In this document: positions 563 to 15,000 of the stretch, piece after piece | Layout: each line of letters starts with the position of its first letter | Position numbering within the stretch: position 1 is the stretch's first letter | Source of the DNA: a virus | Direction: 5' to 3' (one strand) | IMG/VR virus record: IMGVR_UViG_3300017788_001924 | Coordinates: 1-21,627 of that record | DNA: 21,627 nucleotides | Translations under genes and position numbers: made by a program | Notes under the pieces: model-generated | The model's input: the letters and a program-made list of their open reading frames with translations, nothing else | Database searches by the model: none | What the model was told of the DNA's origin: nothing

Positions 563-757
563 ATGAGCTTCATGCTTTTTGAAGTTTGGACTGAAGACGA
601 AGAAGGTCATCAGGAATTGATAGAAACTACTGCCAGTATGTCAGAAGCTGTAAAACTAGCAGAAACAGCAGTATTAGATGGTGCGTTTGCCGCAACTATT
701 TTTCAAGAAACCGAAGACGGAAACTCAAGAGAAATTGAGCGATTTGAAAGTGCTTGA
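563..757 (+). CDS. Small acidic hypothetical protein, 64 aa
   Basis: This is an uncharacterised, strongly acidic protein, predicted as a short beta strand (MLFEVWTED) followed by an amphipathic helix and a C-terminal acidic tail. It has no cysteines, membrane helix or recognisable motif. An AGGAG ribosome site at 544-548 lies 14 bases before the ATG at 563. That spacing is long, and a second in-frame ATG at 572 is possible but further away. The stop codon (755-757) sits inside the -35 hexamer of the promoter for the next gene, so transcription of that gene is set up at the exact end of this one. The layout (two small uncharacterised genes, then a promoter) is typical of phage accessory blocks. 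No function is proposed. Confidence 0.65.
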   Translation: MSFMLFEVWTEDEEGHQELIETTASMSEAVKLAETAVLDGAFAATIFQETEDGNSREIERFESA

Positions 758-782
758 CATTTAAAGTATTATGCAATATAAT
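754..782 (+). promoter_or_regulatory. Perfect sigma-70-type (early-type) promoter
   Basis: The sequence shows TTGACA at 754-759, a 17-base spacer, and TATAAT at 777-782: both hexamers and the spacing match the bacterial housekeeping consensus exactly. The predicted start of transcription is about 789, giving a leader of about 25 bases that contains an AGAGG ribosome site (802-806) before the ATG at 814. In T4-like phages such strong host-type promoters usually drive early genes. The -35 box overlaps the stop codon of the preceding gene. Confidence 0.85.
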
Positions 783-813: not shown

Positions 814-1974
814 ATGGCAAACCTAAAGGCTAAAAATATTAGTACTAATCGTGGAAAAGATCCTATTCCAAAATGGAATGATTGTGAAAACTGGTCAACT
901 GATCAATATTATAAACATTTTCGAGATTCAATGGACTATTATCGACTTGAATTTAGTAGCAAGGATCTTAAACCAAAAGTAATTAGTTGGATGAGCGCCA
1001 ACGGGTATACCAAAGATCAAATTAAATCATTTAAAGATACCAAAGATTATCGCTGTAACTCGACGATGGGTGGTATCGCGGCTAATCTTTTAAATGGTAT
1101 GCTTCCAGTAAGATCAGATTTCAATGAAGGTCGAAACACAGCACTATGGCTTGGAGAGCAAATTTCGAAAGCCATTGAAGAAGGTAAGAATGATTATGCG
1201 CCTGAAACTGATGACGCTGTTAAAAATGTTGCCTATGTACCCAATATTCAAGAAAGACTTCATGAAACAGCAGTAAAAATGACTGAAGAAATCGAAGATG
1301 CTATCGAGAGCTTTCAAGCGGACCCAGAAGCATTTGATCCAAAAGCATTTAAAGTTTCTAGCCTTTTACGATCAAAGCAGGTAAAGGCTGCACATGCTCG
1401 GCTCATTAAAGGTTTTTACGAGGGAAATCTCAGCGAGTTGACTGAGGCAAGTCTAGGAAAAGACGAACAACTTAAAGAAGCGTACCGACATCTTAGCAAA
1501 TCTCAAATTAAAAAAATAATCGCATTCTATCAAGAAGTCTGTTCTGCATGCGATATGCTTTTACAAGAAGCCAAAGTTAATAAAAAACCTCGAGCTAAAC
1601 GTCCCACTGACAAGGCAAAGGTTGTTTCTAAACTTAAATATCAAAAAACATTCGAACCACTAAAGTTGGTATCGATCAATCCACAGGACATCATAGGTTC
1701 TAAAGAACTATGGATCTACAACACCAAAAGCCGTAAGTTAGGGAAATATGTTGCTGCAGAATATCAAGAACTCGGAGTCAAAGGCACAAGTATTACAGGC
1801 TTCGATGAAAATAAATCTGTACAAAAGACACTTCGAAAACCCGAAGATCAAATCAAAGAATTCAAATCTGCAGGCAAAGTACAGTTACGCAAATTCCTAG
1901 AAGATATTAAAGCAGTAGATATCAAGCTCAACGGACGTATTAACGAAGAAGTAATACTGTTAAAAGTCCAGTAA
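814..1974 (+). CDS. Phage hypothetical protein, 386 aa, expected early gene
   Basis: I do not recognise a named family. The reading frame is open back to a TTG at 754, but that codon is the -35 box of a perfect promoter, so I chose the ATG at 814, seven bases after an AGAGG ribosome site. The protein is rich in charged residues. It is mainly helical up to about residue 250, including a long helical stretch around 140-250. A very basic linker follows (about 254-275, many Lys and Arg), then a C-terminal region (about 277-386) that looks beta-rich and includes KELWIYNTKSRKLGKYVAAE. The basic linker could suggest nucleic-acid contact, but no catalytic motif is visible. The strong host-type promoter points to early expression, unlike the structural gene that follows. 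It may be a protein shared among T4-like phages; this was not tested. Confidence 0.8.
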   Translation: MANLKAKNISTNRGKDPIPKWNDCENWSTDQYYKHFRDSMDYYRLEFSSKDLKPKVISWMSANGYTKDQIKSFKDTKDYRCNSTMGGIAANLLNGMLPVRSDFNEGRNTALWLGEQISKAIEEGKNDYAPETDDAVKNVAYVPNIQERLHETAVKMTEEIEDAIESFQADPEAFDPKAFKVSSLLRSKQVKAAHARLIKGFYEGNLSELTEASLGKDEQLKEAYRHLSKSQIKKIIAFYQEVCSACDMLLQEAKVNKKPRAKRPTDKAKVVSKLKYQKTFEPLKLVSINPQDIIGSKELWIYNTKSRKLGKYVAAEYQELGVKGTSITGFDENKSVQKTLRKPEDQIKEFKSAGKVQLRKFLEDIKAVDIKLNGRINEEVILLKVQ

Positions 1975-1990: not shown

Positions 1991-2022
1991 GGATAAATAC
2001 TCCAAATAAGGAGTGTTTATCC
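1991..2022 (+). promoter_or_regulatory. Leader hairpin masking the ribosome site, with an overlapping late promoter
   Basis: Two 13-base arms (1991-2003, GGATAAATACTCC; 2010-2022, GGAGTGTTTATCC) pair along their full length with a single G-U pair, around a six-base loop (AAATAA). The right arm abuts the ATG at 2023, and the stem buries most of the AAGGAG ribosome site (2008-2013). The left arm contains ATAAATA (1993-1999), the T4 late-promoter core. A late transcript would be expected to start near 2005, in the loop, and so lack the left arm. No T-run follows, so this is not a terminator. Confidence 0.72.
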
Positions 2023-4989
2023 ATGCCTGATCAGGGGCGAGTTGCTGTTGCTGATTCCTTCAGAAGAATCTTTCTCCAGCCAAATAGCGTAACTATTTCT
2101 GCAGATGACGTCGATGATCAATTAACGTTAGTCGCAGGAAACTTCATCGAATTTGTTGTTAACGAAGGCAACGATACCTTACAAATAAACGCCAATTCTA
2201 CGATTTCTGCTGCATTCGATGGTGGAAATGTTCAGTTCGTCACAAACTTTTTAAATACAGACGCATCTACTAATACCACTACAGGAGCTGTTAGAATCGT
2301 TGGCGGACTAGGAGTAGGCGGCGCGATCTATGCCAGCAGTATACAGGCCACTCCGATTGGATCGTCAACGAGGGCCTCGGGAGCATTCACATCGTTAGGG
2401 GCCACTGGTACAACCACACTAGAAGGTACTGTAAACATCAACGGTGCTGACGTAAGCACAACTATCAATCCTAGCGGAATCGGCACAGTAACTATAAACC
2501 CTGCTACTGCCGGTACCATTAATAACATGAGTATCGGTGCCACTACCAGAGCCGCCGGTAACTTTACTACACTAGATGCAAACAACACAACTACACTATC
2601 AGGTGCTGTTAACGCAACCGGTTCGAATGTTAATTTAACTCTTTCTCCTACAGGTACGGGAGTAGTTACTATACAACCAGCTGGTGGATTGACTATCAAT
2701 CCAACAACGACCGGTACTATTAATAATACCAGCATCGGAGCCAACACCAGAAGCACAGGTGCGTTTACTACTCTAACTGCAAATAATCTAACAACTGTAA
2801 CCGATAGCACTCAGAGTAGTTCAACATCAACAGGAGCATTAGTAGTTACCGGTGGAGTAGGGATCGGTGGAAATATATATGTTAACGGAACAACCAATCT
2901 CACAGGTGATATAACCGCAACTGGAGATCTAGCGGTAAACGGTGGGGATATCACCTCTACTGCTACAACTGTTAATTTAATAAACTTAAATGCAACAACT
3001 GTAAATTTTGCAGGAGCAGGAACTGCAATTACCATAGGTTCAACCAGTGGATACAGTGATATTAAAAATGAATTACGCCTAACTAAAAATACAGCAGCAT
3101 CGTCTACTTCTACAGGAACTTTAATTGTTACAGGCGGTGTTGGAATTAGCGGTAATGTTCATGCCGGAGGAACAGGAAATTTTGTTGGCATAACATCTAG
3201 TGGTACGGTTTCTCTAAGTCCTGCCAATGCTAATGTCACAGCAAGTCCAACAGGAACAGGTACAGTAACGATCAATCCTGCCACTGCTGGTACTATCAAT
3301 AATATGAGTATCGGTGCCAGTACCAGAAGTACCGGTGCATTTACAACTCTAGATGCTAATAACACCGTAACATTTACTGGTACAGTTTCATCTAATACAG
3401 GAACTAACAATCAGAGTTATACCACAACCGGCGCTGGTGTTATCACGATAACATCGGGCACTGTTGGATCTATGGATAACATAGCCGTTGGCACTTCTAC
3501 ACAGGCTGCTGGATCATTCACCACTTTAGCGGCTTCTGGAAACACAACTTTTAACGGTATCAATGCCACAGCAAGTTTACAGCCAACCGGAACAGGTACT
3601 GTAACTATTAATCCTGCTACTGCTGGTACTATCAATAATATGAGTATTGGCGCCAGTGCCAGAGGCAGTGGTGCATTCACAACTTTAGGCGCTGACAATG
3701 CCGTAAACTTAGATACAGGAACAAACAATCAAAGTTATACTACAACTGGTGCTGGTGTTATCACGATAGCATCTGGAACCAAAGGCACTATTAATAATCT
3801 AAGCATTGGTGAAACAACTGCCAGCACAGGAAGATTTACTACTGTCGAGTCGACAGCAACAACAGGAACTGCTCCGTTTATAGTTGCGTCAACAACTATG
3901 GTTTCTAATTTACAATCTCAAACAGCTAGTAAATTACACACAGCTAGATCAATAAGTTTAAGTGGATTTGTGAGCGGAAGTGCAAATTTTGACGGCAGCG
4001 AAAACATTTCGATATCTACAACCACAGGAACTCAGCTCGTTCTCGGAACAGCGACCTCTGGCCAATATGCATCAACTATTAACATTAGTGGCTCGGGGTT
4101 AAGTATTACAGCACCAAATGCCGATGACGGAACCGCCTATACAATAACTTCGTCAGCAACATCGAGCAACACCATCAACTCTATCGTATTTCGAGATGGT
4201 TCGGGAAATTTTTCAGCAGGGACAATCAGCGCGGCTATCAGTGCTTCTACAATTTCATCTAGTGGTACTGTTGATTTAAACCCTGCAAATGCAACGGTAT
4301 CTCTAAGCCCGTCAGGAACAGGCACAGTAACGATCAATCCTGCCACTGCTGGTACTATCAATAATATGAGTATCGGTGCTACTACTCGTAATACTGGTGC
4401 GTTTACCACATTAACTAGTAATGGAGCAACTACATTCACTGCTAATACAGCATCAACAAGCACAACATCGGGAACACTAGTAGTCACAGGTGGCATCGGA
4501 GTCAGCGGCAGTGTGAGATCATCATCGGCAGTTATTACCAATTTACGAGCAAGTAGTTCTTTCGAAGTTGGTCAAATAAGAACCACAACATCAACATTCC
4601 AGCAAATAAATACCGATACAACTAATGATATAGACTTGTCATTGGAATTTTTTGCTGGTCAAGATACACTACAATATATTAAAATATCTGTCCTAGGGTT
4701 ATATGTTAATGACATTTTTAGTCCCACAGCATGGGCAAGAATTAATAAGCATATAGTTTCTGGAATATGGTACAATGGTTCGGTATATCAATTAGATGGA
4801 GCCGTTGTCGAACATCAACCATTTAATTCGGATAGTACAAACTTTGCAGCAGGAACTACTCCGAGTGCAGGCAAAGTTCAACTGTTAATCGTATCTGGAT
4901 TTCCGACGTTGAGATTAATTAACAGAACCAGTCCTTCAATAAATTCTGTTACATATTGGACATATAAGATCGAGGTACAAAGATGGTAA
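2023..4989 (+). CDS. Repetitive tail-fibre-like structural protein, 988 aa
   Basis: This is probably a virion fibre or baseplate-associated protein. Composition is typical of a beta-structured fibre: Thr, Ser, Gly, Asn and Ala dominate, with almost no Cys. A non-repetitive head (about 1-80) starts with a short charged stretch. About seven copies of a module follow, with consensus GTVTINPATAGTINNMSIGA then TRxTGAFTTL, starting near residues 149, 219, 408, 468, 521, 574 and 762. They are interleaved with four copies of a second module, GTLVVTGGVGISGN-like, near 85, 266, 360 and 811. The last ~130 residues are non-repetitive, with aromatic and charged residues, and are the best candidate for a receptor-binding or capping domain. 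An AAGGAG site is nine bases upstream of the ATG but lies inside a strong hairpin that also overlaps a late promoter. The gene overlaps the next by seven bases. Confidence 0.85.
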   Translation: MPDQGRVAVADSFRRIFLQPNSVTISADDVDDQLTLVAGNFIEFVVNEGNDTLQINANSTISAAFDGGNVQFVTNFLNTDASTNTTTGAVRIVGGLGVGGAIYASSIQATPIGSSTRASGAFTSLGATGTTTLEGTVNINGADVSTTINPSGIGTVTINPATAGTINNMSIGATTRAAGNFTTLDANNTTTLSGAVNATGSNVNLTLSPTGTGVVTIQPAGGLTINPTTTGTINNTSIGANTRSTGAFTTLTANNLTTVTDSTQSSSTSTGALVVTGGVGIGGNIYVNGTTNLTGDITATGDLAVNGGDITSTATTVNLINLNATTVNFAGAGTAITIGSTSGYSDIKNELRLTKNTAASSTSTGTLIVTGGVGISGNVHAGGTGNFVGITSSGTVSLSPANANVTASPTGTGTVTINPATAGTINNMSIGASTRSTGAFTTLDANNTVTFTGTVSSNTGTNNQSYTTTGAGVITITSGTVGSMDNIAVGTSTQAAGSFTTLAASGNTTFNGINATASLQPTGTGTVTINPATAGTINNMSIGASARGSGAFTTLGADNAVNLDTGTNNQSYTTTGAGVITIASGTKGTINNLSIGETTASTGRFTTVESTATTGTAPFIVASTTMVSNLQSQTASKLHTARSISLSGFVSGSANFDGSENISISTTTGTQLVLGTATSGQYASTINISGSGLSITAPNADDGTAYTITSSATSSNTINSIVFRDGSGNFSAGTISAAISASTISSSGTVDLNPANATVSLSPSGTGTVTINPATAGTINNMSIGATTRNTGAFTTLTSNGATTFTANTASTSTTSGTLVVTGGIGVSGSVRSSSAVITNLRASSSFEVGQIRTTTSTFQQINTDTTNDIDLSLEFFAGQDTLQYIKISVLGLYVNDIFSPTAWARINKHIVSGIWYNGSVYQLDGAVVEHQPFNSDSTNFAAGTTPSAGKVQLLIVSGFPTLRLINRTSPSINSVTYWTYKIEVQRW
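2467..4440 (+). repeat. Degenerate coding repeats in the fibre gene
   Basis: The protein modules of the 988-aa fibre are visible at DNA level as diverged direct repeats, most with synonymous differences. Two copies are far more alike than the rest: 3262-3317 and 4324-4379 are identical over 56 bases although about 1 kb apart. A second pair (about 3408-3458 and 3726-3776) is also closely similar. Such islands of identity within otherwise diverged copies suggest recent recombination or gene conversion between modules. Confidence 0.8.
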
Positions 4990-5265: not shown

Positions 5266-5272
5266 ATAAATA
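5266..5272 (+). promoter_or_regulatory. Candidate late promoter (ATAAATA) almost touching the next start codon
   Basis: ATAAATA at 5266-5272 matches the core of T4-type late promoters. With T4 geometry (last A at about -6), transcription would begin near 5278, two bases before the ATG at 5280. No ribosome site is visible upstream of that ATG. The site may therefore yield a nearly leaderless mRNA, or may be a chance match in AT-rich DNA. Confidence 0.45.
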
Positions 5273-5279
5273 GTTAATC

Positions 5280-6422
5280 ATGGTTAAAAATCCGATAGAT
5301 CAAGCATTAGAACAACTAAGTTCTGCAATTAAATCACAGAATTCGACCTCTATCGATATTACAGAATTTCTTAAATCATTACCTAAGAGAGCACTTTCGG
5401 GAGATCATATCTCTGGAGGAAAAATATTAAATTTTTCTAGCTCAGGCATCGTTGATCAATCTACAAAACAACAGATTCTGATCAAAGACGATTTAGTTAA
5501 AATTTCTACGTTAGAAATTGATACAATAAAAGATAATTTTAATGTCCAGGGAAAAATAAAATCTGAAAGCTTAGAAGTTAGTGGATTATTAAAAGCCGGA
5601 ATTCTAGAAGTTGACGAAATACGTGCAGATGTAAAATTGGAAAAACATAGTCCATTAGAATTTAAATCAAATAAAGAAGAATCGATCTACGGAAAAGGGT
5701 TATTATGGTCAGGAACCGGATCTACAAAACAATTAGTTTTAGTTGCTAATCCTGATAGATTTTTTGTATCTGAAAATATTGATCTGGCCAAAGACAAAAT
5801 AATATCTATTAATAATGTTATCGTCCTGAACGAAAAAGAAATTGGACCTAGCGTAACCAAGAGCAATTTAAAAGAGCTAGGAAGATTAAAAGGTTTAACT
5901 GTCGATGGCGACATAACCATTAATCAATATGCTTTTTATAATTCAGATTCTGATAGGCTAGGGCTTGGCACTGACGAACCTCACGGGGCATTAAGTGTTG
6001 CCGAAGACGGTATCGAAGTTATAATAGGCACCAGAGAAAATACAAGAGGATTGATCGGAACATATGCCAGTAACCCATTCGATATAATAACTGATTGTAA
6101 ACCTAGAATTAGTGTAGCAGCTAATGGCGATATAACATTAGGAAATCGAAATCAAAATCCTGTTCAAATTTCAATCCACGGTAAATTATCCGTAAGAGTT
6201 AATAATCCAGACCCCGAGGTCGATTTACATGTTAACGGACCGATAAGATATCATGGTCATATCCATATGTATAACTCTGTCTACCCATCATCAGGAGAAT
6301 ATTCCAAAGGAGACATAGTTTGGAACAATAATCCAAATGTAGGAATGTATGTTGGATGGATTTGTGTGGCTAGCGGAAATCCAGGACGATGGGCTGCATT
6401 TGGTCCTATAGTGAATATGTAA
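5280..6422 (+). CDS. Fibre-like structural protein, long paralogue, 380 aa
   Basis: A likely virion structural protein of the tail-fibre or baseplate type. Residues about 125-380 align closely, without large gaps, to almost the whole of the next gene's product. Shared blocks include GKGLLWSGTGSTKQL, TKSNLKELGRLKGLTVDG, DSDRLGLGT, a GTYAS segment and a C-terminal GDIVWN...GWICVASGNPGRW signature. Similar GDIVWN...GWVC ends occur at the C-termini of many phage fibre proteins, where they may bind or cap. The first ~124 residues are unique to this copy: a helical segment, then short beta repeats (for example NVQGKIKSESLEVSGLLKAG). There is no Shine-Dalgarno site before the ATG, only a late-promoter-like ATAAATA seven bases away. 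It is separated by one base from its paralogue. Confidence 0.82.
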   Translation: MVKNPIDQALEQLSSAIKSQNSTSIDITEFLKSLPKRALSGDHISGGKILNFSSSGIVDQSTKQQILIKDDLVKISTLEIDTIKDNFNVQGKIKSESLEVSGLLKAGILEVDEIRADVKLEKHSPLEFKSNKEESIYGKGLLWSGTGSTKQLVLVANPDRFFVSENIDLAKDKIISINNVIVLNEKEIGPSVTKSNLKELGRLKGLTVDGDITINQYAFYNSDSDRLGLGTDEPHGALSVAEDGIEVIIGTRENTRGLIGTYASNPFDIITDCKPRISVAANGDITLGNRNQNPVQISIHGKLSVRVNNPDPEVDLHVNGPIRYHGHIHMYNSVYPSSGEYSKGDIVWNNNPNVGMYVGWICVASGNPGRWAAFGPIVNM

Positions 6423-7985: not shown

Positions 7986-8552
7986 ATGGCAAATTTTCTT
8001 TCAACAAAAACTTATGGCAATGACAGAGGTCTTTCATGTTGTTTCCGTCAATGGCGTAGCACTCACAGTCATTGCAGCCTACTTCATGGCTATAGCATTG
8101 GCATTCGTCTTGTATTTGAGTCTGATACCCTTGATAGTCGTAATTGGGTTATGGACTTCGGTGGACTGAAAGCTTTCCAGCAATGGGCAGAATGGCAGTT
8201 CGACCACACGTTAGTCATTGCTGAAGATGACCCTTATCTACCATTTTTTAAACAAATGAGTAATTTAGGTGATCCCCCAACATCCGGTACCGGTACTGTT
8301 GATAAAATCAAACCTCACGAGAGAAGAGCTATATGCGATCTTCGTATCGTAGAAGCAGTCGGCTGTGAAAAATTTGCCGAATTAGCGTATCGCACAATGA
8401 ACGAAATACTGATAGCCTACCAAAAGGGTCAAAATTGGACACATCCAGACGGTCGTGTTTTTGAAGCACGTTATTCTGTAGGACAAGGTGTTAAATTAAA
8501 ATCCGCAGAAGTATTCGAACATGAAGGTAATTCTGCGATCTACGAAGGATGA
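7986..8552 (+). CDS. QueD/6-pyruvoyl-tetrahydropterin synthase-family protein, 188 aa
   Basis: This is a member of the PTPS/QueD (6-carboxytetrahydropterin synthase) family, which converts dihydroneopterin triphosphate to a pterin used in queuosine and other 7-deazaguanine pathways. Family landmarks are visible in order: LSCCFRQW at the N-terminus, THSHCSLLHGYS (residues 26-37, with catalytic-type Cys30 and His34), VMDFGGLK (55-62), FDHTL (72-76, Asp73 and His74) and a late Glu in AEVFEHEGNS. At 188 aa it is longer than bacterial QueD (about 120 aa), with an insertion at about 80-110 and a longer C-terminus. The usual HGH zinc motif is HGY here, so one canonical zinc-ligand His is replaced. 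An AGGAG site sits seven bases before the ATG. No folE, queC or queE is in the window. Confidence is good for the family, low for the exact substrate. Confidence 0.8.
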   Translation: MANFLSTKTYGNDRGLSCCFRQWRSTHSHCSLLHGYSIGIRLVFESDTLDSRNWVMDFGGLKAFQQWAEWQFDHTLVIAEDDPYLPFFKQMSNLGDPPTSGTGTVDKIKPHERRAICDLRIVEAVGCEKFAELAYRTMNEILIAYQKGQNWTHPDGRVFEARYSVGQGVKLKSAEVFEHEGNSAIYEG

Positions 8553-8740: not shown

Positions 8741-9438
8741 TGATAAACGTTATTTGTCTTAAACACGGATCTAAGTATGGTGTCGAATATGTAAACATAC
8801 TCTATAATATGATATCTCGACACCTCACCTTACCTTATAGATTCGTATGCTTTACAGACAATCCAAAAAATCTTAATGAAAAAATTGATATTAGAATCCT
8901 TCCTCGAATAGATAACATACAAGGATGGTGGTGGAAACCTTATATTTTTCGAAAAGGTAATTTTGATCACAAGGATATTAATTTATTTTTTGATCTCGAT
9001 ATGGTTATAATCAATAACATAAATCATTTTATAGATTACAAGCCGGGAAAATTTGTTGGATTAGAAGATGTAGGTAGGGTATGGGGTAATCGCCCCCCTA
9101 AGCTAGGAAGTGCTGTTTTAAGATGGCAGGGTGACGAATATCATAAGATTTGGGAAGGTATAGAACTCGATCCTACAACAACTAGAAGATTCCATGGAGA
9201 TCAAGATTATATCTGGAGTATCTGCAGATACGAGATAGAATTTTTTCCCTCAGATTGGATTAAAAGTTATAAATGGGAAGTTAGGAGTCAATCAGAACTA
9301 GTCCGACATTCCGGAGGATTTACATTTAAAAATATATCTAATCCAGTAGTTTCTGAATCAACCTCAGTGCTGGCATTTCACGGAACTCCGAATCCTCACG
9401 AAGTACAAGATCCGATTATAGTTGACAACTGGCGTTAA
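8740..9438 (+). CDS. Glycosyltransferase, GT-A type with DxD motif, 232 aa
   Basis: Probably a nucleotide-sugar-dependent glycosyltransferase of the GT-A fold. The order of motifs is characteristic: an N-terminal strand (INVICLKHGSKYG), a VCFTDNP segment (35-42), QGWWWKPYIF (61-70), the metal-binding FFDLDMVI with Asp85 and Asp87, a later HGDQDYIW (152-159), and a closing AFHGTPNPHEV (212-222). The late His-Gly and DQDY blocks are typical of enzymes that set the acceptor and catalytic site. There is no signal peptide or membrane anchor, so it acts in the cytoplasm. At 232 aa it is a compact single-domain enzyme. It starts in the stop codon of the membrane protein (TAATG). The acceptor is unknown: fibre protein, phage DNA or host glycan are all possible. 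Its 3' end contains the promoter of the next gene. Confidence 0.78.
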   Translation: MINVICLKHGSKYGVEYVNILYNMISRHLTLPYRFVCFTDNPKNLNEKIDIRILPRIDNIQGWWWKPYIFRKGNFDHKDINLFFDLDMVIINNINHFIDYKPGKFVGLEDVGRVWGNRPPKLGSAVLRWQGDEYHKIWEGIELDPTTTRRFHGDQDYIWSICRYEIEFFPSDWIKSYKWEVRSQSELVRHSGGFTFKNISNPVVSESTSVLAFHGTPNPHEVQDPIIVDNWR

Positions 9439-9450
9439 ATGTCATATAAT
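9422..9450 (+). promoter_or_regulatory. Perfect sigma-70-type promoter of the UV endonuclease gene
   Basis: TTGACA (9422-9427), 17 bases, then TATAAT (9445-9450): an exact match to the housekeeping consensus, partly within the 3' end of the glycosyltransferase gene. With -10 at the usual place, transcription would start at about 9457, which is the A of an in-frame ATG. This predicts a leaderless uvsE mRNA and early, host-polymerase-driven expression in the middle of a block of probable late genes. Confidence 0.82.
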
Positions 9451-9456
9451 GATACT

Positions 9457-10479
9457 ATGACTAAACGTATCGGTTTTGCTTGCAAATGGATCGACCGTCC
9501 TGATCAGGTAGACGGTATCAAACCTAAAGACGACTGTAAAAAATACAATACAGGATCTACCACTGTCGCTTGGTTAAATAGACAAACCAAGGAGGTGGCT
9601 GTAGAGAAGCTCTGGTCTCTAATGGAACAGAATATCGAATCGTGCCGCCTGCTTGTAGAACGAGTAGGGAGTTTAGATGAAGATCTTAGAATGGTACGAC
9701 TTAGCAGTGATATACTGCCTGTATACACTGAGCCGACTTGGGGCTGGTTTTGGCGGCTTCCTGATGTCAGAGAATACTGTGCTCGAGGATTTTCGAGAGT
9801 GGGTGACTTGGCCCGTGAGAATCGGGTTCGCCTTAGTTTTCATCCCGGTCAGTTTACTGTGCTTGCAAGTGATAATCCGGATATTGTCAGTCGCAGTATA
9901 GAGGAATTTGAATATCATGTGGACATGGCTCGTTGGATGGGTTACGGACAAACGTTCCAAGATTTCAAGATCAATGTCCACATCGCAGGTCGACTGGGAC
10001 CAGATGGCATACGTGCTGCGCTGGCTAGGATGACACCTGAAGCTAGGAATACACTTACTATCGAAAACGATGAGATGACTTGGGGCATCGAGGACAGCCT
10101 TGAATTAGTTAACGACTGTGCCCTGGTGTTAGACATACATCATCATTGGGTTAAGACCGGGGAATATATCGACGCGAATGACGATCGTATTAAAAAAATC
10201 ATCGATAGTTGGAGAGGTGCTCGTCGTCCTGTCGTCCATTATAGCGTTAGTCGTGAAGATTTACTCGTCAGTCATTGTACTGTCACTCGCCCAGATATGC
10301 AATCTTTATTAGCACAAGGTTACAAAAAAACCAAGCTTCGTGCCCACAGTGATTTTATGTGGAATTCTGCTGTTAACGATTGGGCATTAACTCATTCCGA
10401 ATGGGCCGACATGATGATAGAAAGCAAAGCTAAAAATCTTGCTAGTAGAGCACTTTACGAATATAAACAAAAATCATAA
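9457..10479 (+). CDS. uvsE: UV damage endonuclease (UvdE/UvsE family), 340 aa
   Basis: This is a UV damage endonuclease: a metal-dependent TIM-barrel enzyme that nicks DNA 5' of pyrimidine dimers and other lesions, starting excision repair. Family blocks are clear: IGFACKWI near the N-terminus, RLSFHPGQFTVLAS (His129), INVHIAG (His175), TIENDE (Glu203), LDIHHHW (Asp226, His228/229) and PVVHYSVSRED (His261), matching the metal-ligand positions expected. In the Thermus enzyme a modified Lys lies two residues before the last His; here that position is Val259. I chose the ATG at 9457 because the ATG at 9439 lies between the -35 and -10 boxes of the gene's own promoter and adds six non-family residues. 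A stop-to-terminator gap of one base follows. The gene looks less AT-rich than the neighbouring glycosyltransferase, which may point to separate acquisition. Confidence 0.92.
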   Translation: MTKRIGFACKWIDRPDQVDGIKPKDDCKKYNTGSTTVAWLNRQTKEVAVEKLWSLMEQNIESCRLLVERVGSLDEDLRMVRLSSDILPVYTEPTWGWFWRLPDVREYCARGFSRVGDLARENRVRLSFHPGQFTVLASDNPDIVSRSIEEFEYHVDMARWMGYGQTFQDFKINVHIAGRLGPDGIRAALARMTPEARNTLTIENDEMTWGIEDSLELVNDCALVLDIHHHWVKTGEYIDANDDRIKKIIDSWRGARRPVVHYSVSREDLLVSHCTVTRPDMQSLLAQGYKKTKLRAHSDFMWNSAVNDWALTHSEWADMMIESKAKNLASRALYEYKQKS

Positions 10480-10900: not shown

Positions 10901-11296
10901 ATGGCTTACAGCGATAAAGTTATTGATCATTACGAAAATCCTCGTAATGTTGGCAGCTTTGACAAAAACGACACTAGCGTAGGAACAGGAATGGTTGGAG
11001 CACCGGCCTGCGGTGACGTGATGAAGTTACAGATAAAGGTAGACGAAAATGGCATTATATCCGATGCACGTTTTAAGACGTATGGATGTGGTTCAGCGAT
11101 CGCGAGCAGTTCGCTGGTTACGGAGTGGGTCAAAGGCAAAACTCTCGATCAAGCTGCTACTATCCGGAACACAGAAATTGCCAGCGAGCTTGCGCTCCCG
11201 CCTGTCAAGATCCACTGCTCTATCCTCGCGGAAGACGCGATCAAAGCAGCCATAGAAGATTATAAGAAAAAACATGATTCCCAGCCCGTGCAATAA
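10901..11296 (+). CDS. iscU: Fe-S cluster assembly scaffold IscU, 131 aa
   Basis: This is the scaffold on which Fe-S clusters are built from desulfurase-derived sulfur and iron, then released to carriers. All key features are intact: PACGD with Cys37 and Asp39, YGCGSAIASS with Cys63, and the HscA-binding LPPVK (99-103) followed by His105 and Cys106. Length (131 aa) and motif spacing match bacterial IscU (about 128 aa), so it is the single-domain Isc-type scaffold rather than SufU or a NifU fusion. No iscS, hscB, hscA or fdx is in the window, so the protein would have to use the host desulfurase and chaperones; the preserved LPPVK supports that. It appears less AT-rich than the structural genes. 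Its last 23 bases overlap a hidden DUF1289 gene, starting an iscU-DUF1289-iscA operon. The ribosome site is weak (TGGA). Confidence 0.95.
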   Translation: MAYSDKVIDHYENPRNVGSFDKNDTSVGTGMVGAPACGDVMKLQIKVDENGIISDARFKTYGCGSAIASSSLVTEWVKGKTLDQAATIRNTEIASELALPPVKIHCSILAEDAIKAAIEDYKKKHDSQPVQ

Positions 11297-11450
11297 AATA
11301 TGCAAGTTGGATTCTAATAATATCTGTATTGGCTGTAAACGTACTATAAACGAAATCACTCAATGGAGTATGTTTTCTGATGAAGGCAAACTTACTGTTT
11401 TAGAGAGAATAAATGATCAACATGACCGAGTTAGCAGCACAGAAAGTTAA
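11274..11450 (+). CDS. Hidden DUF1289-family four-cysteine protein, 58 aa
   Basis: A short gene in a different frame from both neighbours, overlapping the end of iscU by 23 bases and the start of iscA by 38. The protein begins MIPSPCNKIC and continues with NICIGCKRTINEITQWSMFS, then SDEGK and a helix. This is the signature of DUF1289: C-x3-C, C-x2-C (Cys6, 10, 18, 21), the GCxRTxxEIxxW core and a following D/E-rich helix. Family members are small proteobacterial proteins whose cysteines are thought to bind metal or an Fe-S cluster; the function is not established. The N-terminal SPC matches the family start, supporting the ATG at 11274. The ribosome site is weak (AAGAAA), so coupling to iscU translation is likely. 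Its location between scaffold and carrier genes suggests a role in cluster assembly or transfer. Confidence 0.85.
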   Translation: MIPSPCNKICKLDSNNICIGCKRTINEITQWSMFSDEGKLTVLERINDQHDRVSSTES

Positions 11451-11742
11451 AGAATTTTTATCTAAAAGAGGGAAAGGCCTGGGTATTAAAATCGGAGTAA
11501 AAACTACCGGTTGCTCGGGATTAGCCTATGTTTTAGAATATGTTGACATAGAGCAAGGAAAAGAACACTGTATGGAACACTACGAAGTTAATGGTGTTCA
11601 AATTTATATAGATCCCAAACATAGACCCTATCTCTACGGAATGACTATGGATTGGATTAAAAAAGGTCTTAATGAAGGATTTGATTTTATTAACCCAAAT
11701 GAACGAGATCGCTGTGGCTGCGGAGAAAGTTTTCGAGTCTAA
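11413..11742 (+). CDS. iscA: A-type Fe-S carrier protein IscA (HesB family), 109 aa
   Basis: An A-type carrier that accepts Fe-S clusters or iron from the scaffold and delivers them to apo-proteins. The three invariant cysteines are present: Cys34 in TTGCSGLAY, and Cys101 and Cys103 in the C-terminal CGCGESF. Length is as in E. coli IscA (107 aa). The IscA, SufA and ErpA subgroups are hard to tell apart from sequence alone; the partnership with iscU favours IscA. I chose the ATG at 11413 (GAGAG at 11403-11407, five bases away) over the ATG at 11422, which is 14 bases from it. The coding sequence is more AT-rich than iscU next to it, so the two may have been gathered separately. The stop codon overlaps the convergent zinc-ribbon gene by four bases, and transcription probably ends at a terminator inside that gene. 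Confidence 0.93.
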   Translation: MINMTELAAQKVKEFLSKRGKGLGIKIGVKTTGCSGLAYVLEYVDIEQGKEHCMEHYEVNGVQIYIDPKHRPYLYGMTMDWIKKGLNEGFDFINPNERDRCGCGESFRV

Positions 11743-12026: not shown

Positions 12027-12097
12027 ATTGTTATTTACATTAGGCTTGTAAAAATTTTGAATAAATACCAAAGTAGACAAATTTTCTGAGGTATAAC
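12027..12097. promoter_or_regulatory. Divergent 71-base region with late promoters both ways
   Basis: On the plus strand ATAAATA (12061-12067) gives a predicted late start near 12073 and a 25-base leader with a GAGG ribosome site (12088-12091) six bases before the ATG at 12098. On the minus strand GTAAATAA (complement of 12031-12038) predicts a start at about 12026, the A of the zinc-ribbon ATG. A weak ATACC/GGTAT pairing (12065-12069 with 12090-12094) could partly mask the plus-strand ribosome site in read-through RNA. Confidence 0.55.
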
Positions 12098-15000
12098 ATG
12101 GCAAGAAAAGTTATTGATGTTGGTCTATCCAACAATGACGGTACTGGCGATAGTATTCGTGACTCGTTCAAAAAAGTAAATGATAATTTTCAAGAATTGT
12201 ACGGATCTCTCGGGTTAGGAGAAAGATTATCATTTAGAGGGCTAGAAGATACTCCCGGATCGTATCTAAACCAACAAGGAAAATTATTAGTTGTTAATCA
12301 AACACAGGATGGATTAGAGTTTAGGAGTCTCCTTGCAGGAACTTCTATGGCTATTGATTATGATAATGTTACCGGATCTATTACACTACGACCGTTAAAT
12401 CAAGATGTTGTAAACGATACCACTCCTCAGTTGGGCGGAAATCTTGACGCAAGATCTGGAGGTGTTAACTATAAGATTTTCAATTTACCTGCACCTAGCG
12501 GTCCCACAGATGCTGTAAACAAATCCTATGCCGATACTAAAATTTCTTTATCCGGTGTTGATGCTGTGGATCCAGAAACTGGTCTAACCAACGAAGCATT
12601 TGGTACAATGACTGGTCCGTTGGTTCTTTCAAGAAATCCAGTTACTGCAGACGACGACGATTATGATGGACTCATCGCTGCTACTAAAAGATATGTAGAT
12701 AGATCTAGTTTTTCTAGTACTACATCCTTATACGTAAATCTCGGAGGTAGCGATAATCGTACAGATCTTTCTGAAGATAAGCAAGGAAGATCTCCGGCAT
12801 ATGCGTTTAGAACATTAGAAAAAGCATTAAAAGAATGCGAAAGAATTATTGCTGAAAGCCCTTTTGAGCTTAGTGTATATAAGAAGAAATTAGTTTATAA
12901 TAACGGACTCCCCTGTACTTTAACTAAAATAGAAACAGCATTAATAGAAGATCCGTTGAATCTGGGATCGTTCATCCAAGCAGGAAGCGGAGCAGTTATT
13001 ATTCCTAGGATGCTGATAGAAAGTTTTACCCTGAGAAATCCCGGTACTGGGTATAAAGCAGGTGATGTTATACAGATAGGGTTACCATCAAATCCTGGAA
13101 CATTTACCAGCAGAGCCAGTGTCAAAGTTTTGAGAGTAAGTAATGTAAACGGTGCGATTTTAACTTACGAAATCGTCGGAAGAGGAAATTATACCGGTCT
13201 TCCCGGAGTATTAGATGTCGGATCTACTTTATCTGTACCCGTTGCCGGATCGGTAGGTGCCGGTGCAACATTTGATTTAACTTACAGCGTAGCAGAATTA
13301 TCAGTGACTGGCCAGGGATCAGGTTATGGTCCAGTGAGTATCAGAATATCAGCCGGCGGTGGCGAGGGTGCAGCGGCAACAGCGATCGTATCAAATGGTT
13401 CTATAATCGGAACGACTCTCCTTTCAGGTGGAGGTGGTTATACATCCCTACCAACAGTTCAAGTATTTTTACCTAGATTGTTTGTTTTTACCAATGGAGC
13501 CAGAACAGATTTTTCATCATCATTAGATCCGCTAGCACAAGATATAAGAGAAGGTCTTGGCATACGAGGAATAACATCAGGAGCAATAGCAGAAATTCTA
13601 TCGCACAATGCTTCCCTAGACGATACGTTATCTGGTTATCCTACTGGTACAGGTAAAAACGAATTATTTGATGTAGGTGTGTTAAGCGGTTGGTTCATCG
13701 ACGGTGAAGAACTCGAATACGGCGAATTAATTAAAACAAAACAAATAACAGTACAAGTAGAGTCTGGATCGTTCGAAGAAAACTACCCGTTGAGAGTTTC
13801 AAATAACGTTTCTATTATCGGAGAAGAATTTAGGCGAACACTGATCCGTCCTAAGCCAGGTATCAGTACTAGTCCTTACACACAGATCTTTTTTAGAAGA
13901 GATCCTATTATCGATAACATACGGGTAACAGGTCTATACGGAATTAATTTAGCAACTAATACCACTGCAGCTTTAAGTGCCAGAACCGGAACCATCACAG
14001 TTACCTTAGGTTCTCCGGGAACCAACACGAATTGGATTGGAAAAATATGGAAGTGTATTCCCACCAGAGGCGAGGGAGTAGTCACTCAAATTTTAAGTTC
14101 TACACAATTTAAAGTTAGAATACATGATGATTTAGATAGCACAGCAACTATAGCTCAAGGAGCTATATTTGTAGGAACTATTAGTAGCACAACACTAACA
14201 GTCGAGTCTGTTACCTCTGGAACTATCACCGTTGGTATGGAAATAAATGCAATCGGAGCTACTACCATACCGATCGGAATAAAAATAGAAGAACAGCTCA
14301 CCGGGGCGATCGGAGGAACAGGAACTTATAGACTTAACAAAGGTTATAAACTTCCAAACTCAACTTCTATTTTTGGATCAAACTGGCAGATTTATACTGT
14401 AAATGAATACGGATTTCATTATCTAACTGATCCTAGCAGACCTATATATCCTCTGTTAGAAAACATCGGAAGAAACGTTAATGCTGCAACTCTATTAAAA
14501 TTAAACAAATTATTCATCCAAGAAGAAGTTATTGCATATGTTAATAGAACCTATGCAGCAACAGGTTACAATGAAGAATTATGTAAAAGAGATATCGGTC
14601 TGATAATCGATGCCATAGTCTATGATCTAATATATGGAGGTTATACTCGATCAGTCGAGGCGGCCTTAAAATATTATCAAAGTGTTAGCGGATTAATCGC
14701 CATAGGACTAACCGGAACTCCAGAATCTGGATTTTTAGATATAATTTCAAATTCTCAAAAATCAGCTACATTAGGTGCTATCTCATTCGCTGCCACATTA
14801 GCTGATCAAACTGTAAGAAATAATTCTTTAGAAAAATTTAATATCAATCCAGAAGCTGTACAGATAATTAATTTTTCATTAACGAGAGAACCTCTGGCAA
14901 CTGGAATCATAGCTGCATTAATGAATACCATCTATCAAATGCTAGATGATCCGAGAAATGTCAACTTCCCTAAAGATAACAGAGAAATGGATGTATTCTT

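Follow-up and report, generated by a model that had tools for sequence, protein, structure and literature searches.

The closest described systems are the genes of bacteriophage T4 whose longer transcripts form an inhibitory structure and whose late transcripts are made without the 5' portion of that structure (PMC3014915, PMC2988022). T4 genes 49, segB and I-TevI and Aeh1 mobE are, like the gene described here, late genes lying inside an early or middle transcription unit (PMC2988022), but their hairpins control nucleases, and T4 soc, a late virion protein gene as in the present case, is listed under control by inhibitory structure (PMC3014915). The DNA studied is a stretch of 21,627 nucleotides, referred to as the window (IMG/VR record IMGVR_UViG_3300017788_001924, positions 1-21,627), a fragment contig from an uncultured T4-type phage containing a hairpin that, judged by its sequence, most likely joins the T4 gene e-type switches. 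A textbook switch of a few T4 lysis and nuclease genes would thereby reach an environmental lineage, where it would govern a fibre-like virion gene. A second point of comparison is the PeSL cassette of T4-type phages, in which a terminator-like stem-loop is paired with an early promoter. These cassettes also place stem-loops and promoters at exchangeable gene junctions, but the stem in the window surrounds a late promoter and a start site.

Sequence and predicted fold of the hairpin

The features of the locus are collected in Table 1. The initial annotation had described a near-perfect 13-bp stem ending at the ATG of a fibre gene and burying most of the AAGGAG, and both points hold, with 1991-2003 pairing with 2010-2022, a sole U.G wobble between T1998 and G2015 and the right arm ending directly before the ATG at 2023. 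The GGAG is fully paired and the first two A are in the loop, the distance from AAGGAG to the ATG being 9 nt. The ATAAATA is in the left arm as had been claimed (1993-1999), and because in T4 about one helical turn separates the late TATA box from the start downstream of it (PMC2988020), the late start is expected near 2005 within the loop, again in agreement with the earlier description. The minimum free energy is -34.6 kcal/mol compared with a mean of -18.4 in dinucleotide shuffles (z -5.68, 0/200 as stable), with a z of -4.76 when a longer stretch is folded, and the unpaired probability of the GGAG in the predicted fold of the read-through RNA is 0.00.

Table 1. Coordinates of the hairpin, its flanking genes and the internal controls in the window
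Feature	Position	Strand	Basis
Sigma-70 promoter with full consensus TTGACA-17-TATAAT, from which early read-through is proposed to arise	754-782	+	12/12 match
Upstream gene, 386 aa, phrog_11903, putative early/middle gene	814-1974	+	PHROG E 4.7e-66
Left arm of hairpin, GGATAAATACTCC	1991-2003	+	Fold; predicted to belong to read-through RNA only
T4-type late promoter box GATAAATA within left arm	1992-1999	+	ATAAATA at 1993-1999
Hairpin loop AAATAA, late transcript start expected at 2005	2004-2009	+	Fold; T4 box-to-start distance
Shine-Dalgarno (SD) AAGGAG, GGAG paired in read-through RNA	2008-2013	+	Sequence, predicted fold
Right arm, GGAGTGTTTATCC: SD plus TGTTTATCC, promoter-complementary, abuts ATG	2010-2022	+	Sequence, fold; kept with left arm
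Repetitive fibre-like virion protein gene, 988 aa, proposed late gene	2023-4989	+	Repeats, weak PHROG matches
Internal control, ATAAATA 7 nt before ATG 5280, without hairpin	5266-5272	+	Opening cost 3.7 kcal/mol
Internal control without hairpin, late promoter for the connector-like gene (2540 aa) starting at 12098	12061-12067	+	Opening cost 4.4 kcal/mol

A Watson-Crick pair at 1998/2015 would place ATAAATA on the opposite strand, forming an antisense late promoter, and the wobble may thus preserve the stem while avoiding it. The right arms of T4 segB and I-TevI carry this antisense ATAAATA, which the wobble removes in the window, so avoidance of the box is no general rule. Two other assignments of the hairpin were rejected. 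It is not an intrinsic terminator, having no U tract and being followed directly by ATGCCTG, and a terminator scan detected none at the hairpin or in the interval before it (1975-1990). Neither is it an operator of the gp43 type, in which the DNA polymerase binds a hairpin that precedes the SD and has a conserved loop (UAAC or UAAA, for example), as the SD here lies within the stem and the controlled gene is not a polymerase.

Proposed switch and opening cost of the start site

The hairpin is very likely a cis-acting, stage-specific translation switch, a model for which we infer the actual 5' ends, the timing and the effect on translation as follows. The sigma-70 promoter, earlier called strong and found to match the consensus fully, would drive early RNA for the upstream gene, and as there is no terminator between them this RNA would run on into the fibre-like gene. 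In the early RNA the paired arms would hide the GGAG through to the ATG, leaving ribosomes unable to start. In the late phase a T4-type late sigma factor would read the late box and the RNA would begin near 2005 without the left arm, its 18-nt leader exposing the AAGGAG and allowing the protein to be made. A late gene directly behind a strongly expressed early gene would be insulated in this way, because the early RNA would be silent and the late RNA translated.

The computed energetics are in line with the earlier claim of a closed read-through RNA and an open late RNA, at about 20 compared with about 4 kcal/mol. Freeing the region from the SD to the ATG costs 18-21 kcal/mol in the read-through RNA and 3.4-4.4 kcal/mol in late RNA with any start from 2003 to 2007. 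With the T4 genome as a control and the opening cost of positions -15 to +3 compared between read-through and late RNA, the window gene falls from 21.3 to 5.0 kcal/mol, T4 e from 15.0 to 1.2-4.0, 49 from 15.8 to 3.6, segB from 17.1 to 5.0 and I-TevI from 13.6 to 1.6 kcal/mol. Barriers are low at most ordinary late genes of T4, with 53, 51 and 26 as exceptions, and the starting barrier of the window gene exceeds that of every T4 gene tested. The logic of T4 genes e, soc and 49 had been invoked for this hairpin in the initial annotation; the signatures of e and 49 match, but soc shows only a weak barrier in the same calculation (8.1 to 5.0) and differs from the window gene in this respect.

The window resembles T4 gene e in having a late box encoded within the 5' arm, an SD sequestered in read-through RNA, a predicted late RNA without the arm and the same energy signature. 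It differs in controlling a fibre-like virion protein in place of a lysis enzyme, in its higher computed barrier, and in belonging to an uncultured phage only distantly related to T4 in which the switch is predicted from sequence. In T4 49, segB and I-TevI the left arm reads ATAAATAC... with its complement just before the ATG, as in the window.

The genes on either side of the hairpin

The upstream gene is preceded by a sigma-70 promoter in 48/48 dereplicated lineages, matching 10-12 of the 12 consensus positions (12/12 in 41 lineages) where random windows usually score 7-9, and in nearly all of the 48 the promoter is about 30 nt from the gene start. ATAAATA never precedes the upstream gene in these lineages. 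With a near-perfect sigma-70 promoter in this position, read-through into the next gene is expected unless it is stopped. In cultured T4-type phages, phrog_11903 homologs have nrdA/B, RNase H, ligase, RuvC, glutaredoxin and phoH genes as neighbors or, in PA5oct, adjoin rIIA/rIIB; such neighborhoods fit an early or middle gene and suggest early timing. In the five cultured-phage junctions examined downstream of this gene (L199-L202, L206), ATAAATA is absent.

The start of the controlled gene at 2023 is backed by N-terminal conservation (80%). Its repeats, together with weak matches to PHROG structural and decoration profiles (E about 2e-5), suggest that the 988-aa product is a fibre. A short nucleotide match to a tail-fibre gene of Synechococcus phage BUCT-ZZ01 is present. 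The nucleotide search of cultured phages with the window gave short fibre matches only and a tblastn search with the fibre N terminus gave none, so that these searches offer no cultured host system for studying the gene. An alignment search with the fibre N terminus gave five loci.

Conservation of the hairpin

All 32 bases of the hairpin are identical in one relative lineage represented by four IMG/VR contigs (L004/L003/L002/L085). A third lineage (L089/L090) reads ...CTCT-AAATA-GGAG..., with a C-G to U.G change that keeps the pairing and a loop shorter by one base. Arms varying without compensation in relatives had been named as an outcome that would refute the switch, and no such variation is present, L004 being identical and the change in L089 pair-preserving. 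Otherwise the arms of the window-type class are nearly invariant, and this single one-sided change leaves little variation from which to read covariation. Identity at the upstream gene's fourfold sites amounts to only 26-42% among the window, L004 and L089 lineages, placing synonymous sites near saturation. The flanks of the hairpin have diverged between lineages, as has the adjoining fibre N terminus, where 8/19 fourfold sites are identical to L004. The divergence of flanks and fourfold sites means that the identity of the hairpin reflects constraint, unless there has been very local exchange of the element. A search with a generalized hairpin pattern returned mostly chance matches and was set aside.

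A chance inverted repeat without function would be in keeping with the lack of enrichment of ATAAATA by itself (6 found across the whole window, 10.1 expected), but the absence of any equally stable fold among the shuffles and the exact conservation at near-saturated synonymous divergence leave its probability negligible and in effect refute it. The exact sequence, including the loop, is more conserved than pairing alone requires, and this would suit a translational operator present in all mRNAs, either as a binding site for a phage protein or as a temperature sensor, of the kind carried by T4 genes 32 and 43 (PMC3014915). The promoter, SD and stem together already account for most of the sequence constraint, and the late RNA cannot hold the stem because the left arm contains the late box; such an operator is very unlikely.

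Terminators and hairpins at the same junction in relatives

The sequence following the gene was read at 80 collected loci carrying phrog_11903, and about 50 relatives were compared, these being related lineages and so non-independent samples for the junction counts. The next gene, fibre-like or structural, is with few exceptions directly preceded by an ATAAATA box, and the junction takes one of three layouts. Layout (a) is an SD hairpin as in the window, (b) is an intrinsic terminator followed in most cases by ATAAATA-N7-ATG, and (c) is an inverted repeat around the box and ATG without a terminator. The last divides into class c1, with ATAAATA-N5-ATG and the right arm inside the first codons, and class c2, in which the ATG is within the right arm itself. 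Counted as distinct lineages, 23 have a terminator and 27 a terminator-free late promoter with hairpin-class spacing, the class labels on the tree denoting spacing and terminator absence and the folding being done on distinct junction sequences.

Hairpins of classes a, c1 and c2 give z values of -4.5 to -6.9 (-3.6 for the c1 member L174), compared with 0.15 for one terminator-type junction. The median cost of opening the start site is 9.7 kcal/mol without a terminator and 3.75 kcal/mol with one, and removal of the left arm lowers the cost by at least 6 kcal/mol at 20/29 junction starts compared with 3/40 other late starts of the same loci. In some c1 members the ATG is in a small loop with a cost of only about 5, and the terminator-type junctions L137 and L141 also show moderate structure at the start site. 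The arms of c1 covary, with 28 double-change cells compared with 9.7 in shuffles (0/500), and shifting the register abolishes the signal. Parsimony on the upstream-protein tree requires at least 12 switches between terminator and hairpin, and well-supported branches alone force five changes of terminator state.

A palindromic operator at the DNA level, with a dimeric repressor over the late promoter, has a precedent in T4 I-TevI, a protein that binds an operator covering the late promoter of its gene (PMC2988022). It is a highly improbable reading of the present hairpin, in which the loop is 6 or 5 nt by lineage, so that half-sites would shift by one base, and the T/G mismatch is kept as a U.G wobble; the compensated changes at sister junctions also suit RNA pairing and not one fixed operator.

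The position of the hairpin, with its first base 16 nt past the stop codon of the upstream gene, and the presence of a terminator hairpin in the same interval in many relatives would fit a stem-loop whose main role is to protect or set the 3' end of the early mRNA from the upstream gene, through processing or by blocking exonucleases, with the overlap of the ribosome site incidental. The lack of a U tract and of detection as a terminator stand against this role, as do the three sequence classes that enclose the late promoter and start, one with a coding right arm, which a stabilizer would have no reason to do; terminator-type junctions, moreover, mostly leave the start site open, as the median costs indicate. 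A 3'-end element is accordingly unlikely. The translation switch fits the repeated swapping of terminator and start-site hairpin at a single boundary, which would be expected if selection acts to keep the late gene silent in early RNA, and the exchange, read from the junction sequences, is the strongest independent support for it.

It is rather likely that this uncultured T4-type group insulates one early/late boundary by an interchangeable terminator or start-site hairpin, with c1 as a leaderless switch of the gene e type. The ATAAATA-N5-ATG (or N7) spacing predicts late mRNA that is leaderless or nearly so, and a limited literature search covering titles and abstracts gave no relevant report of leaderless late mRNA in T4-type phages. 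On the literature searched, the terminator/hairpin interchange and the leaderless class c1 are apparently undescribed. The relatives suggest several interchangeable ways of preventing expression of a late gene that follows a very strong early promoter, and a rule is proposed for the exchange of late-gene cassettes next to early genes, which predicts leaderless late mRNAs in T4-type phages.

Other late promoters and the late machinery

Three of the six ATAAATA in the window are just upstream of ORF starts compared with 0.2 expected, and the motif is concentrated before ORF starts in the window, the relatives and T4. Further copies of the hairpin had been expected before other late genes on these contigs, but the opening-cost calculation found none, the remaining late genes of the window and relatives having opening costs of 2-7 kcal/mol. 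The late promoter at 12061-12067 is preceded by an antisense ORF. The gene starting at 5280 encodes a 380-aa structural-like protein whose expected late RNA has no SD, making it a candidate for a nearly leaderless late mRNA, and its orthologs in G003 and G005 have box-ATG spacings of 7 and 6 nt. Most of the L119-L198 junctions have a box-ATG distance of exactly 5 or 7 nt, and several of these carry hairpins with a coding right arm.

Large, near-complete relatives of 270 and 282 kb that carry the upstream gene have matches to a gp55-like sigma factor (E about 1e-25) as well as to a gp23-like capsid protein (E about 1e-100). On the window contig and its closest relatives, which are fragments, neither a gp55 gene (T4 gp55 query and PHROG profile) nor a gp23-like gene was found; the T4 gp55 query is too distant, and the PHROG gp55 profile matched only on larger contigs. 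In G006, near a gp55-like gene, the reverse strand of L117 (2045-2092) has a perfect 21-bp inverted repeat, TTATCTCCGTAATGAATAAATATTTATTCATTACGGAGATAA, with a late box and SD, preceding a 253-aa ORF (MFIYKI...VYIGF) that recalls GIY-YIG nucleases and has no Pfam match at 0.001. A weak 7-bp version of the layout, GGATAAATA...GGAGATTTTATCC, occurs on the reverse strand of the same genome (L107:3799) before a gp10-connector-like gene (MATTIQSIDVG).

Additional features of the window

The start of a UvdE-like UV-endonuclease gene (9439-10479) overlaps a second perfect TTGACA-17-TATAAT, located at 9422-9450. The window also has a 6-pyruvoyl tetrahydropterin synthase-like gene (7986-8552), and IscU/NifU_N-like and Fe-S_biosyn (IscA-like) genes are adjacent at 10901-11742. 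The end of the contig (21416-21627) has a collagen-like (GPQGDP)n repeat within a fibre-like ORF of 636+ aa.
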